Origin: a virus
Length of the DNA: 33,609 nt
IMG/VR virus record: IMGVR_UViG_3300042401_000466
Location: 1-33,609 of that record
Reading direction: 5' to 3' (one strand)
Of the stretch, positions 27,110 through 33,609 are shown piece after piece (the first letter of the stretch is position 1; each line of letters opens with the position of its first letter). The position numbers and the translations under genes were made by a program. The notes under the pieces are model-generated. The model worked only from the letters and a program-made list of their open reading frames with translations. It did not search any database and was not told where the DNA came from.

Positions 27110-27419
27110 AATATTTAACGTTGACACGTTAATCATGCCTTCAGACGTTGAATTCATGAAGATTGATAGCGATAGTGTATGGGCAACGTTTGAAGACCTT
27201 AGAGAACGTTTATACATACAAGACGGGATTGTATACAACGAAGAGGGAGACCGTATTTGTACTACAATGGAGTTAGAACAATTTGATGAATTTGCGGAAC
27301 TAAACAAATGTACTACATGCGGTGGATCAGGTGAATACATGGTAACAGATTACGACCAAGACGCACCATTCCAAAACATTTTAATAAATTGCTATTGTGA
27401 GAAGCCCTTCGAACTATAA
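27090..27419 (+). CDS. Hypothetical protein with zinc-ribbon-like cysteines
   Basis: A 109-residue acidic product. The C-terminal part has NKCTTCGGSGEY and INCYCEKPFEL, that is CxxC...CxC, a likely zinc knuckle. The N-terminal part is MKKIINKIFNVDTLIMPSDV; an inner ATG at 27135 (MPSDVEF) is another possible start. It overlaps its neighbours at both ends in other frames. Confidence 0.65.
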   Translation: MKKIINKIFNVDTLIMPSDVEFMKIDSDSVWATFEDLRERLYIQDGIVYNEEGDRICTTMELEQFDEFAELNKCTTCGGSGEYMVTDYDQDAPFQNILINCYCEKPFEL

Positions 27420-28456: not shown

Positions 28457-28700
28457 TGTGTAAAAATAGAAAAATTACATAAATAATTATTTCGCTTGTT
28501 TTCCTTTCATTATCAATGAGTTGAAAAAAGAAATAAAAAATCAAAGTTATATCGCCCTTAGTACATAGTATAAAACATTTATTTTTTTTTCTGAAAAAAA
28601 GTTGACATTTTTACGTTTTGCATTTAACGTTTTATTTTACAATTAGTTACAACCGAAAAAAACCGAAAAATGACATCAAAAAATATTTACGTTTTTTACT

Positions 28701-28794
28701 ACATCTCTACAAGTCTACACATCTCTACATACAACTCTACACTCAAAACACCAATAAACACAGGGCTTAAGAGCATTTTGTAGAGATGTAGAGG
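28701..28794. repeat. Repeat unit 1 of the CTCTACA/TGTAGAG array
   Basis: The left arm has ACATCTCTACAAGTCTACA (28701-28719), CATCTCTACA (28720-28729) and CTCTACA (28735-28741). The centre has AAACACCAATAAACA (28746-28760) and GGGCTTAAGAGC. The right arm has TGTAGAGATG (28779-28788) and TGTAGAG (28787-28793). The unit is thus an interrupted inverted repeat. Confidence 0.85.
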
Positions 28795-28853
28795 TAAAAT
28801 AGCAATCTTTTATATATAAAAGGGGATTGGAAAAAATAAAAAAATATTGAAAA

Positions 28854-28952
28854 ACATCTCTACAAGTCTACAAAAACAACTAAACACCAATAAACATAAG
28901 GCTTAAAGCCTGTAGAGATAGTGTAGAGATAGTGTAGTAATGCGTAGAGATG
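28854..28952. repeat. Repeat unit 2 of the CTCTACA/TGTAGAG array
   Basis: The left arm repeats the 19 bases ACATCTCTACAAGTCTACA (28854-28872). The centre repeats AAACACCAATAAACA (28882-28896) and has AGGCTTAAAGCCT, a near-palindrome. The right arm has TGTAGAGATA at 28911 and 28922, TGTAG at 28933 and CGTAGAGATG at 28943. The overall order is the same as unit 1. Confidence 0.85.
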
Positions 28953-29036: not shown

Positions 29037-29044
29037 TATATTTG
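29037..29044 (+). promoter_or_regulatory. Bacteroidota-type -7 promoter box for the replication operon
   Basis: TATATTTG, in the longer context TTTGTATATTTG shared with the site at 2800. It precedes a structured leader and the replication operon. No good TTG lies 19-21 bases upstream, so the -33 element is weak or replaced by activator binding. Confidence 0.65.
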
Positions 29045-29056
29045 CAGATATATATC

Positions 29057-29133
29057 GGTCCAGGATATAAAGAGACATTAGTAAACCTATTATTTTTAGC
29101 AACTGGACCTTGTTAAATTTGATAGGTTTTTTT
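29057..29133 (+). ncRNA. Attenuator-like leader with two interleaved stems
   Basis: GGTCCAG (29057-29063) pairs with CTGGACC (29103-29109). AAACCTAT (29083-29090) pairs with ATAGGTTT (29122-29129), which is followed by TTTTATTTTA and so looks like a terminator. The two stems cross (A-B-A'-B'), so they form either a pseudoknot or two alternative folds. In the second case the first stem would block the terminator. The first gene starts at 29153. A regulatory role is inferred; no ligand is suggested by the sequence. Confidence 0.55.
29083..29133 (+). terminator. Possible leader terminator (attenuator)
   Basis: AAACCTAT / ATAGGTTT with a 31-base loop, followed by a T-rich tract. The long loop makes it weaker than the other terminators, consistent with conditional use in front of the replication genes. 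Confidence 0.45.
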
Positions 29134-29152: not shown

Positions 29153-29377
29153 ATGAAAAAAGGAATTTTAATTTTTAGCATTGCTTTGACAATGTTAAGT
29201 TGCTCAAAAGAACCATCAACATGTGGTAGAATTGTAAGTGATAATGTACATGATTATTCTGTTACAATTAGAAATTCAAATACTAACAACTTGAAAACAT
29301 TTTACCTTACAGAAGGCGATTGGATGAATGCACACCCTGGAGATAATTATTGTATCTATAACACAACACAATGGTAA
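29153..29377 (+). CDS. Small lipoprotein, second in the genome
   Basis: A 74-residue product with a lipoprotein signal (MKKGILIFSIALTMLSCSKE; lipobox TMLSC, cysteine 17) and a short mature part (CGRIVSDNVHDYSVTIRNSN ... GDNYCIYNTTQW). It is the first gene behind the leader, so it would be made early. Early surface lipoproteins of phages often prevent superinfection. Family not recognised. It resembles the lipoprotein at 28170 in size, with little other identity. Confidence 0.7.
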   Translation: MKKGILIFSIALTMLSCSKEPSTCGRIVSDNVHDYSVTIRNSNTNNLKTFYLTEGDWMNAHPGDNYCIYNTTQW

Positions 29378-29379
29378 TT

Positions 29380-29889
29380 ATGGAAGAGTTTAAAGATGTA
29401 ATTGGATATGAAGGTCTTTACATGGTTAGTAATTTAGGAAATGTTAAGAGCTTATCTAAAAAAGTTTGTAACCATAGAGGATGTTACATTACTAAAGATA
29501 TAATCTTAAAGACTGCATACAATAAGAAAATGTATCTACAAGTAAAACTTTACAAGAATGGTGAATCAAAAACAAGGTCTGTTCATCAGTTAGTAGCAGA
29601 ATCTTTTTTAAACCATGTTAGATGTGGAATGAATTTAGTTGTAGATCATGTTAATTCAATAAGAGATGACAACAGAGTTGAAAACTTAAGAGTAGTTACC
29701 AATAGAGAAAACTCATATAGAGCACAAGGAAATTACACAAGTAAATACAAAGGAGTTAGTTGGTTTGTTAGGGATAGTAAATGGAAAGCAATGATTTACT
29801 TTAATGGTAAAAGAAAACATTTAGGGTATTTTACATGTGAATTAGCAGCAGCGTTGGCATATCAAAACAAATTAAAAGAATTAGCATGA
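29380..29889 (+). CDS. HNH homing endonuclease with NUMOD4 and AP2-like domains, second copy
   Basis: A 169-residue paralog of the endonuclease at 2904. It shares the NUMOD4 motif (KDVIGYEGLYMVSNLGNVKS), the HNH core (LVVDHVNSIRDDNRVENLRV) and the AP2-like end (SKYKGVSWFVRDSKWKAMIY ... LGYFTCELAAALAYQNKL). I chose ATG 29380 by analogy with the first copy; ATG 29371 adds 3 residues. It overlaps the primase-helicase start by ATGA, as the first copy does with thyX. It is probably a mobile element at a replication-gene locus. Confidence 0.9.
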   Translation: MEEFKDVIGYEGLYMVSNLGNVKSLSKKVCNHRGCYITKDIILKTAYNKKMYLQVKLYKNGESKTRSVHQLVAESFLNHVRCGMNLVVDHVNSIRDDNRVENLRVVTNRENSYRAQGNYTSKYKGVSWFVRDSKWKAMIYFNGKRKHLGYFTCELAAALAYQNKLKELA

Positions 29890-31376
29890 GCGATATAAAT
29901 ATAAATCCTGAGGAGAAATTTTGGTCAGTAAACCAAGATGGTAAGGTTTCATTAAACAATTATAAGTTTAAGAGATTTTTAGAAATGAATCATTTTTTTA
30001 AGAACAGACCAAATCCAAATAGTACTTTTAACATAATCAAAAAGAACGGTATATTCTTAGAGATTGTAGATGAAGTAGAGGTGAAAGATTTTGTTCTTAA
30101 TCACATCTTAAAGGAACGTTTAAGCGAAGATGTGTATAATCTTATGACTTCAAATATTAAGTTCTTTAAACGTGATTATTTAAGCATGATTGAAAGCAAG
30201 GAAATAAAAGTTCTAAAAGACACTAAAGACATTGCTTATTTGTTTTATGAAAATGGAGTGTTAGAAGTTACAAAAGACAAATCAGAACTTAAAGACTACA
30301 AAGATTTTAATCTTAATATTTGGGAAAATCAAGTTATAAAAAGAAAGTATGTAAGTTCAGACCATCATGACTCTGAGTTTAGAAAGTTTGTTTGGAAAAT
30401 ATCAGGAGGTATTGATATAAACGACAACTCATCAGTAGAAGATAAAAACAAATACGATACTGCAGTAGATAGATATAATTCTTTTCAAACTGCAATAGGC
30501 TATTTAATACATTCTTATAAGACATCAGGAAATAATAAAGCAATTATTCTTAATGATGAGATGATAAGTGACTCACCAAATGGTAGGTCGGGTAAAGGTG
30601 TGTTTTGGAATAGTTTAAAGCACATGAAAAAACTACAGTCAATAGATGGTAAACAGTTTAAGTTTGGAGGTGATTTTCCTTATCAATCAGTAAAAACAGA
30701 CTGTCAAATATTAGTGTTTGATGACGTAAAAAAGAACTTCCAATTTGAGAATTTGTTTAGTGTTATTACAGAGGGTATTGATATAACCTATAAAGGAAAA
30801 GATACCATTAAACTTCCTGTAGAAGATTCTCCAAAGATTGTAATTTCTACAAACTACGTGTTAAAAGGAAATGGAGATTCACACGATGCGAGAAAATTTG
30901 AACTTGAACTATCTACTTTCTTTAACGCTAACAATACACCTTATGAGTTCTTTGGACATTATTTATTTACAGATTGGGATAAATTAGAATGGGCTCGTTT
31001 TGATTGTTACATGATTGAATGTTTAAAGAAATACCTTAATAATGGATTGGTATCTTACAAATCAATATCTTTACCACTTAAGAAATTAGAGGCTAATTTA
31101 GGCAAGGAATTATTTGAGTTTTGTTTAGAGCTTCCAAAAAATGAATGGTTATCAGGACAGGAAACTTATGACAAATATAAGTTCAGTATTTCAAAATCAT
31201 TCATGGCAAAATCAAAAAAGGAAGTAACACAATCCATAAAAAAGTTTTGCGATTTCTTTGGCTATGAATACGAAACAAGAACTCCAGGAGGTTTATTAAA
31301 ATTCATGATAACAGAAAGGTCTATTACACCAAAAGAAGTAACAGAAAGCGACCTTGATATTTGGGACACGATATGA
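29886..31376 (+). CDS. SF3 replicative helicase/primase-type protein
   Basis: The 496-residue product has D5/SF3-like helicase motifs: Walker A PNGRSGKGVF (G233-G238), Walker B ILVFDD (275-280), motif C PKIVISTN (316-323) and an arginine-finger candidate in DSHDARKFEL (R336). The N-terminal 200 residues lack a clear primase motif, so a primase function is possible but not shown. Members of this family load at the phage origin and unwind it. It follows the candidate origin, lipoprotein and HNH genes. Confidence 0.85.
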   Translation: MSDININPEEKFWSVNQDGKVSLNNYKFKRFLEMNHFFKNRPNPNSTFNIIKKNGIFLEIVDEVEVKDFVLNHILKERLSEDVYNLMTSNIKFFKRDYLSMIESKEIKVLKDTKDIAYLFYENGVLEVTKDKSELKDYKDFNLNIWENQVIKRKYVSSDHHDSEFRKFVWKISGGIDINDNSSVEDKNKYDTAVDRYNSFQTAIGYLIHSYKTSGNNKAIILNDEMISDSPNGRSGKGVFWNSLKHMKKLQSIDGKQFKFGGDFPYQSVKTDCQILVFDDVKKNFQFENLFSVITEGIDITYKGKDTIKLPVEDSPKIVISTNYVLKGNGDSHDARKFELELSTFFNANNTPYEFFGHYLFTDWDKLEWARFDCYMIECLKKYLNNGLVSYKSISLPLKKLEANLGKELFEFCLELPKNEWLSGQETYDKYKFSISKSFMAKSKKEVTQSIKKFCDFFGYEYETRTPGGLLKFMITERSITPKEVTESDLDIWDTI

Positions 31377-31579: not shown

Positions 31580-31734
31580 TGACTAACTTACTAATTAAAG
31601 GTGAGATTGATAAGTTAAAAGGTTCTATGAATGTTATTATCGAGAATACACCTGAGAAATTAGATATGATTGAAAAGTACGAGGACATGATAAAAAGATT
31701 AGAGTTAGTTAAGTTATATTTAAAGAGGATATGA
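31576..31734 (+). CDS. Small helical hypothetical protein, 52 aa
   Basis: ATG 31576 overlaps the previous stop (ATGA), with TGA at 31732-31734. An in-frame ATG at 31567 would add 3 residues. The product starts MMTNLLIKGEIDKLKGSMNV and is Lys/Glu-rich and helical. It ends in ATGA overlap with the SF2 helicase. Confidence 0.6.
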   Translation: MMTNLLIKGEIDKLKGSMNVIIENTPEKLDMIEKYEDMIKRLELVKLYLKRI

Positions 31735-32951
31735 AAGAACTTAGAGATTACCAAGTTGACCTATCTAAAAAAGCGGTCGATATATTAAAAGAAAAGAAAA
31801 TAGTTTACCTTCAGTTCAGCGTACGCGTTGGAAAAACAGCAACAGCACTTGAAACATGTAGACTATACGGAGCTAAAAAAGTGCTATTCTTAACAAAGAA
31901 AAAAGCTATTGGCTCGATTGAAAGTGATTACAAAGATTTTGGCTTTACATTCGATTTAACGGTAATAAATAACGAGTCACTCCAAAAGGTAACAGACAAT
32001 GATTTTGATATCGTTATACAAGACGAGGCGCATTCTATGGGTGCGTTTCCTAAACCAAGTAATAGAACGAAAGATTTTAAGTTACGTTTTTCACGTGTGC
32101 CTATGATATTACTTTCGGGTACACCTTCAGCAGAATCGTACTCGCAATGGTATCACCAATTTTGGCTTAGTGCATACAACCCATTTGCACAATATAAAAA
32201 CTTTTATCAATGGTCAAAGACTTTTGTAAATGTTAAGCAAAGGCAGTTAGGTCATGGATTGATTAACGACTACTCAGATGCAAAGATTGACTTAATAGAT
32301 GCAGTTATACAGCCTTATATATTGAAGTTCACACAGGAAGAAAGCGGTTTTGAATCAAAGGTAAATGAACACGTAATATATTACCCTACTTTATGCAGAA
32401 ACTTAATCGAGCGATTGGAAAAAGATTTAATCATTGAGGGCAAAGAAAATGTAATATTAGCAGACACGGGAGCAAAGTTAATGCAGAAGGTTCATCAGCT
32501 TGAGTCGGGAACAATAAAGTTTGAATGTGGTAAATCAATGATATTAAACACTCGCAAAGCTGAATTTATTAGAGACTACTTTGAAGGCAAGAAACTTGCA
32601 ATACTTTACTACTTTGTTGAGGAGTTTGAATTGTTAAAACTTGTATTTCCTAACTTTACAACCGACTTAGATGAATTTAATAGAACAGATAAACATTACA
32701 TTGGACAACAATACGCAAGTAGCATGGGTATTAATCTAAGTGCTGCGCATTCACTGGTTTTTTACTCGTTTGGATATAGTGGCACACACTTTTTGCAAGC
32801 TATCGACAGACTTACTACTAAAGAAAGAAAGAAAAACGATGTTTATTTTGTGTTTGGTAAAGGTTCTTTGTCGGAACGTATTTATAAAGTTGTGTCTAAA
32901 AAGAAAAACTTTACATTAAAGATGTATGAGCGAACAAAGGATTCAAAGTAG
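31731..32951 (+). CDS. SF2 DEAH-type helicase
   Basis: A 406-residue DNA helicase or translocase. The start RDYQ (Q8) is like the phage SF2 Q-motif, Walker A is FSVRVGKTATA (29-39), Walker B is IVIQDEAHSMG (94-104) with DEAH at 98-101, motif III is LSGTPSA (128-134), and motif VI is FLQAIDRLTTKER. It belongs to the phage replicative SF2 group that often precedes a VRR-NUC protein. Motif VI lacks the usual QxxGRxxR pattern. It would act in replication restart or recombination. Confidence 0.85.
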   Translation: MKELRDYQVDLSKKAVDILKEKKIVYLQFSVRVGKTATALETCRLYGAKKVLFLTKKKAIGSIESDYKDFGFTFDLTVINNESLQKVTDNDFDIVIQDEAHSMGAFPKPSNRTKDFKLRFSRVPMILLSGTPSAESYSQWYHQFWLSAYNPFAQYKNFYQWSKTFVNVKQRQLGHGLINDYSDAKIDLIDAVIQPYILKFTQEESGFESKVNEHVIYYPTLCRNLIERLEKDLIIEGKENVILADTGAKLMQKVHQLESGTIKFECGKSMILNTRKAEFIRDYFEGKKLAILYYFVEEFELLKLVFPNFTTDLDEFNRTDKHYIGQQYASSMGINLSAAHSLVFYSFGYSGTHFLQAIDRLTTKERKKNDVYFVFGKGSLSERIYKVVSKKKNFTLKMYERTKDSK

Positions 32952-33418: not shown

Positions 33419-33609
33419 ATGAAAACAAACCTCAGAAAATTAGCATTGATACTTAGAAAGGTAGATGCTTCAAAGTTCTTGTATGTTAGCTCAACAAGAC
33501 ATGATATTGTACTTGGAGCGATGGAACAAGATGTATTAATCGACGACTTAAATATTAATTGGGATTCAATCGAATACGATTTAGAAATGACAATCTTTAA
33601 GAAAAACAA
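33419..33609 (+). CDS. Hypothetical protein, 5' part of a gene split by the linearisation
   Basis: The N-terminal part of the 70-residue protein that ends at base 149 once the 127-base overlap is collapsed. It starts MKTNLRKLALILRKVDASKF in the context AACACACAATG. The start context supports this ATG. No family was recognised. Confidence 0.85.
   Translation, partial: MKTNLRKLALILRKVDASKFLYVSSTRHDIVLGAMEQDVLIDDLNINWDSIEYDLEMTIFKKN
33483..33609. repeat. Terminal direct repeat, right copy
   Basis: Identical to bases 1-127. It lies inside the split gene and has no structural features typical of a packaging site. Confidence 0.97.

Follow-up and report, generated by a model that had tools for sequence, protein, structure and literature searches.

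A gene-free array of two mirror-image repeat units next to an SF3 helicase operon as candidate replication origin of an uncultured phage

Genomic context of the locus

The window, i.e. the whole stretch of 33,609 nt that was analysed (IMG/VR virus record IMGVR_UViG_3300042401_000466), has identical ends over 127 bp (1-127 and 33483-33609) and is therefore taken to represent a complete circular map with a length of 33,482 bp, although the record is classed as linear. It encodes a terminase, a portal, and a tape measure protein as well as an ERF annealing protein, an exonuclease, an SSB-like protein, ThyX, and MazG. Among the listed families of the window ORFs, in case of PHROG the best 25 of 87, neither a DNA polymerase nor a primase was found. 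One ORF (alignment A3) matches Sigma70_r2 with an E-value of 2e-4 and possibly represents a phage sigma factor. Genome G001 is collinear with the window over almost the full length, and a scan of genome contigs for relatives returned none. With respect to the portal protein, the Nonlabens phages P12024S/L come closest among the phage records (34% identity). Due to this match and the promoter-like box described below, we infer a host in the Bacteroidetes.

In the region of interest, two repeat units separated by an AT-rich spacer are followed by a promoter-like box, a predicted leader RNA, and the replication operon (Table 1). A preliminary description of this DNA had placed the repeats in a block without genes, and indeed no credible gene was found there, the sole overlapping ORF of at least 50 aa being a 50-aa TTG ORF (28618-28770). 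As likewise described there, the block precedes the SF3 helicase operon, with a lipoprotein-like small ORF and the HNH gene intervening before the helicase gene in the window.

Table 1. Position of the repeat units and of the adjoining features and genes in the window
Feature	Position	Strand	Remarks
Array unit 1	28701..28793	.	forward CTCTACA at 28705, 28713 (GTCTACA), 28723, 28735; reverse TGTAGAG at 28779, 28787
Unit 1 core (AAACACCAATAAACACAGGGCTTAA)	28746..28770	.	repeat family D6, 92% identical to unit 2 core
AT-rich spacer (CAATCTTTTATATATAAAA...GAAAAAATAAAAAAATATTGAAAA)	28794..28853	.	candidate DNA-unwinding element; kept in 9/9 aligned arrays
Array unit 2	28854..28950	.	forward copies at 28858, 28866 (GTCTACA); reverse copies at 28911, 28922, 28943 (CGTAGAG)
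Unit 2 core (AAACACCAATAAACATAAGGCTTAA)	28882..28906	.	repeat family D6
Promoter-like box TATATTTG	29037..29044	+	fits Bacteroidetes -7 consensus TAnnTTTG
Leader RNA, predicted H-type pseudoknot	29057..29129	+	stem 1 GGTCCAG/CTGGACC; stem 2 AAACCTATTA/TGATAGGTTT; then T-run
NUMOD4/HNH/AP2-type endonuclease	29371..29889	+	between array and helicase
SF3 (D5-like) helicase, proposed initiator	29886..31376	+	496 aa; predicted C-terminal winged helix at about residues 395-476
Second helicase (ResIII/SNF2-like)	31731..32951	+	replication operon; its similarity does not track the iterons

Layout of the repeat array

Both units follow one order of forward copies, core, and reverse copies, and every part named in the preliminary description was located: ACATCTCTACAAGTCTACA occurs at 28701-28719 and 28854-28872, AAACACCAATAAACA at 28746-28760 and 28882-28896, and GCTTAA at 28765-28770 and 28901-28906. 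The core comprises 25 bp in both units, reaching from AAACACCAATAAACA to GGCTTAA. The "about eleven" copies of CTCTACA/TGTAGAG reported earlier were counted as eight exact copies and three with one mismatch, with start positions from 28705 to 28943, and the AT-rich spacer between the units was found with a length of 60 bp. The copies are arranged in tandem with a spacing of approximately 8-12 bp. In case of unit 2, the reverse copies are spaced by approximately 11 bp and an additional degenerate TGTAG is present at 28933.

The array is far above chance and unique within its genome. In 100 dinucleotide shuffles of the whole window, the highest count per 260 bp of any 7-mer with at least 3 G/C was 3 (97 shuffles), 2 (two shuffles), or 4 (one shuffle), compared to 8 copies observed. 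Outside the array, the highest 7-mer count per 260 bp of the window is 3, and matches to the 7-mer with one mismatch occur at 0.86 per 270 bp.

The SF3 helicase and its C-terminal domain

The SF3 helicase contains Walker A and B motifs and the conserved helicase columns. Pfam and NCBIfam gave no family name for it, and PDB searches by sequence, with the helicase or a helicase profile, returned nothing. The relationship to known structures came from fold comparison only. The AlphaFold model has a mean pLDDT of 77, with low confidence in some regions of the ATPase core; its best PDB match is 7om0, the primase-helicase of SaPI5 (E 5.6e-8, sequence identity 14%), followed by poxvirus D5/E5, and its best matches in a viral library are phage primase/polymerases. 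At the C-terminal end of the model (residues 395-476), the secondary structure shows helices and strands in winged-helix order, and a winged-helix DNA-binding domain is predicted for this part.

A primase domain is absent from the window helicase, and a primase encoded with the helicase is likewise absent from the listed families of the window. In distant relatives, the N-terminal domain is a Prim-Pol domain (L044) or a BT4734-like domain with PriCT_1 (L048, L049, and L054), and DUF5906 marks the helicase domain in L048, L049, and MW202828. Thus, the window clade possesses a helicase without its primase part. Single in-frame stops were observed in otherwise conserved ORFs, namely in the helicase of L040 and in the G005 and G006 homologs of the ORF at 27397.

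Occurrence of the array in related phages

Relatives were found via the helicase among viral contigs. The search for the array in related phages, as suggested in the preliminary description, recovered array and spacer in eight relatives. In the alignment of these eight arrays and that of the window, the spacer and most of the iteron positions do not vary, and the cores fall into two types. Relatives at 85-96% helicase identity with sufficient upstream DNA contain the CTCTACA array, which in L007, L010, and L011 is partly altered to CTCTCCA-like copies. L003, with a helicase 96% identical to that of the window, lacks an extra upstream TTGACA stretch, yet its array is intact. The TTGACA/TTTACGTTTT region upstream of the array (28600-28695) had been considered as part of the origin and was rejected, being missing from L003 and L008; the DNA between the upstream gene and the array is thus dispensable.

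An AT-rich non-coding block is situated before the helicase operon in most loci with readable upstream sequence. These blocks are mostly iteron-bearing, many of them above shuffles, and the iteron differs by lineage: CGTAAAAAGT occurs in L019, L025, L036, L039, and L041, ACTTTCTACA in L028, L032, and L033, AGTGGACTTT in L020, AAGTTCAATA in L021, AATGTGTACT in L048, and ATGTGTTGCG in L050. No clear iteron emerged from the k-mer test for L038 and L049 due to degenerate repeats, and results for L018, L024, and L035 were weak or negative because the automatic window fell elsewhere.

Arrays of CTCTACA/TGTAGAG with mirror-image layout and an AT-rich stretch were also observed in L086, L091, L109, and L185, which belong to an unrelated phage group. 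They are located near structural-type genes, and no helicase relative was detectable in the fetched DNA.

Joint change of iterons and helicase C-terminus

Typical relatives at 60-65% identity are approximately 77% identical to the window in the helicase core and approximately 37% in the C-terminal domain. Across all pairs, iteron similarity correlates with C-terminal identity when core identity is controlled (r 0.22, p 0.001). The correlation amounts to r 0.34 (p 0.0015) at core identities of 70-93% and to r 0.33 (p 0.0007) at core identities below 97%, compared to r 0.006 for the neighbouring helicase gene in the latter test; all of these statistics ignore kinship and the relatives are not independent. 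In a subset of 22 loci with core identities of 70-95%, r is 0.22 (p 0.04) and with further controls 0.15 (p 0.12), and the N-terminal signal is about equal to the C-terminal one. The C-terminus, although encoded at the far end of the gene relative to the array, still tracks the iterons.

Single pairs illustrate the relation. L018 and L036 are 97% identical in the core and 41% in the C-terminus, and their iterons differ. In case of L017 and L020, the flanks on both sides are 85-98% identical, whereas the array in between is not alignable, and the C-termini of their helicases are 54% identical compared to 90% for the core. Contrary pairs exist as well, in which C-termini of approximately 90% identity accompany different iterons, e.g., L019 and L028 (94%). 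Taken together, the sequence comparisons show, with a moderate signal, that the iterons change together with the C-terminal domain of the helicase across relatives.

Promoter-like box and pseudoknot leader

TAnnTTTG is the -7 promoter consensus of the Bacteroidetes. By itself this consensus is not enriched in the window; most relatives possess a box similar to that of the window in the DNA that separates array and leader. The leader lies between the box and the first gene and contains AAAGAGACATTA in its loop. Its pseudoknot architecture was observed in 26 tested loci with 18 different first and 20 different second stems, and relatives with such a leader include L003, L008, L012, L016, L019, L036, and L041. 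Stems swapped between loci pair poorly, at 47% and 53% of positions, and of the 294 control intervals none was accepted by the pseudoknot search. Own stems pair to 100% because the search requires it; the evidence lies in the recurring place, the AAGAnATTA loop motif, and the control.

Taken alone, the pseudoknot of the window (score 39.5) does not exceed shuffled sequences (44.5 for the best of 20) and is thus convincing only by comparison among relatives. In a strict whole-genome scan, the leader is the only match of the window, and in most long relatives the only or best match is located at the leader position. Exceptions are G009, G015, and G003 with an additional match, G010 and G018 with matches only elsewhere, and G016 with none. 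For L032 and L035, the unanchored best-scoring structures were in other registers, and a search anchored at the loop gave the common architecture. The leader has no match in Rfam; as covariance models leave pseudoknots out of account, weak matches could be missed.

The first gene after the leader varies and encodes a lipoprotein-like ORF, an HNH protein, the SF3 helicase, another helicase, or a PrimPol-like protein (L192 and L229). Due to this variation, the leader seems to be tied to the origin and the promoter rather than to a single gene. The helicase gene directly follows the leader in L019 and L033, and the endonuclease gene of the window is therefore placed outside the origin. L192, L229, and L189 possess a pseudoknot leader and iteron-like blocks, e.g., with GTGTAAAGT-type repeats, before other replication genes. 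In L229, a PrimPol-like protein of 749 aa follows the leader and a relative of the window helicase is not detectable; phage records searched for this leader gave no match.

The leader represents an undescribed pseudoknot whose stems change with the pairing kept. It is tempting to speculate, as a rather unlikely extension, that origin and leader form one unit: a pseudoknotted RNA transcribed from a promoter within the origin block would join initiation or its control, acting as a primer, an initiator-binding RNA, or an attenuator, and iterons and winged helix would co-diversify and bar related phages from each other's origin.

Comparison with known replication systems

SaPI Rep helicases recognise iteron origins via their C-terminal domain, and the related helicase Cch2 of SCCmec binds AAGTG repeats via residues 400-538, possibly in the form of two hexamers (PMC7581432). 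The SaPI5-type replicon and the window have in common a D5/SF3-type helicase with a C-terminal DNA-binding domain, which is a predicted one in the window, and multiple copies of short iterons in an adjoining block. However, the SaPI origin is located directly downstream of the helicase gene, whereas the block is situated upstream in the window as well as in the relatives examined. Furthermore, SaPI Rep has the primase domain that the window helicase lacks, and the window units are, unlike the SaPI origin, each a mirror-image pair around a core. Considering the upstream position, the double mirror-image layout, and the missing primase, the block may work in the manner of a SaPI-type origin without being a member of that family.

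Cch2 is, like the window helicase, of the SaPI5-Rep kind and binds direct repeats of 5 nt (PMC7581432). The three AAGTG iterons of its putative origin are located downstream of its gene, compared to eleven CTCTACA-type copies upstream in the window, and SCCmec possesses a separate primase-polymerase pair, unlike the window. The replication module of Nitratiruptor phage NrS-1 comprises a PrimPol and an SF3 helicase (PMC7102993), and the helicase and nuclease genes that come next resemble those of the window. NrS-1 primes at TTTGGTTA, an 8-mer with two copies in its genome; the window contains four scattered copies, which corresponds to chance level, and none in the array.

Iteron plasmid origins of the RepA/DnaA type likewise have tandem repeats that are spaced by approximately one helical turn and adjoin an AT-rich stretch, with a RepA-type initiator instead of the SF3 helicase. 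The DnaA box TTATNCACA, which covers the E. coli-type consensus only, does not occur in the block, and its frequency in the window corresponds to chance. In satellite phage P4, the alpha protein is the helicase initiator, and ori and crr are two repeated iteron-bearing elements. The window resembles this layout in a proposed helicase initiator combined with two iteron-bearing elements, except for the primase that is carried by the alpha protein and missing from the window helicase.

The block as candidate origin and alternative explanations

The earlier proposal of a candidate replication origin is supported, in that the block is conserved, unique, and gene-free, contains an AT-rich spacer, and adjoins the SF3 helicase operon. 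An origin of the phage at 28701-28950 is very probable and the best-supported reading of the sequence data, and it is probable that the 7-bp repeats serve as binding sites (iterons) for the SF3 helicase. Both initiation and binding at the block are deduced from sequence comparison. The cumulative GC skew named as a check in the preliminary description lends no support, being weak and inconsistent among maps: neither GC nor AT skew has a consistent turning point in six maps, only some of which are proven circular by end repeats. Since nearly all genes run one way, GC skew is uninformative here.

By analogy with the SaPI/SCC initiators, the C-terminal winged helix would bind the CTCTACA copies in both mirror-image units, and the helicase would assemble at each unit, perhaps in two hexamers. 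Opening of the intervening AT-rich spacer would follow, and the helicases would load on the strands. Due to the missing primase domain, priming would have to be provided by the host or another phage protein. In this way, origins are predicted for a group of uncultured phages that probably infect Bacteroidetes. Their many natural helicase-origin pairs, with altered recognition sequences and nearly identical helicase cores, could allow the code between winged helix and iterons to be read and tested.

It is unlikely that the array consists of repressor-type sites for transcription control of the downstream promoter. The promoter-like TATATTTG is indeed located 87 bp 3' of the array, and in some relatives, e.g., L036, the last iteron is approximately 25 bp from the promoter box. 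However, the array of the window is situated at a considerable distance upstream of the promoter, a repressor would not need two units with a conserved AT-rich stretch between them, and the helix-turn-helix (HTH) protein encoded at 27397 is not conserved alongside the iterons. Autoregulation by the initiator would be compatible with an origin at the block.

It is improbable as well that the iterons of the origin are bound by some other protein, which would then load the SF3 helicase. Such a binder would agree with the moderate covariation and with the differing iterons of L019 and L028 despite their nearly identical C-termini. The HTH protein, which had been suggested as a binder, is a poor candidate: clades with the same iterons lack a convincing ortholog, as seen in the L015 and L010 genomes. 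Furthermore, the neighbouring helicase, the one further candidate tested besides the HTH protein, does not track the iterons, whereas the putative DNA-binding part of the SF3 helicase changes along with them.

It is very unlikely that the repeats function through folding, with hairpins or cruciforms formed by the mirror-image units in DNA or RNA. Each unit represents an imperfect inverted repeat, including a perfect 14-bp pair (28699-28712/28778-28791), and the variant repeats of L011 occur on both sides, but the tandem spacing is as expected of protein sites. In addition, the aligned arrays conserve the repeat sequence itself and show few compensating changes, in contrast to the downstream pseudoknot. 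A packaging (pac/cos) or partition site is hardly probable: despite the gene-free cluster of repeats and the CTCTACA arrays near structural-type genes in the unrelated L086, L091, L109, and L185, the large terminase gene is approximately 11 kb distant on the circular map, no partition gene was recognised among the listed families, and the block remains beside replication genes in relatives.

Long tandem arrays of CTGTAGAGATGG-type repeats were observed in L095, L112, L118, L126, and L134. Due to their different layout and occurrence without the helicase, they are probably unrelated to the array of the window.
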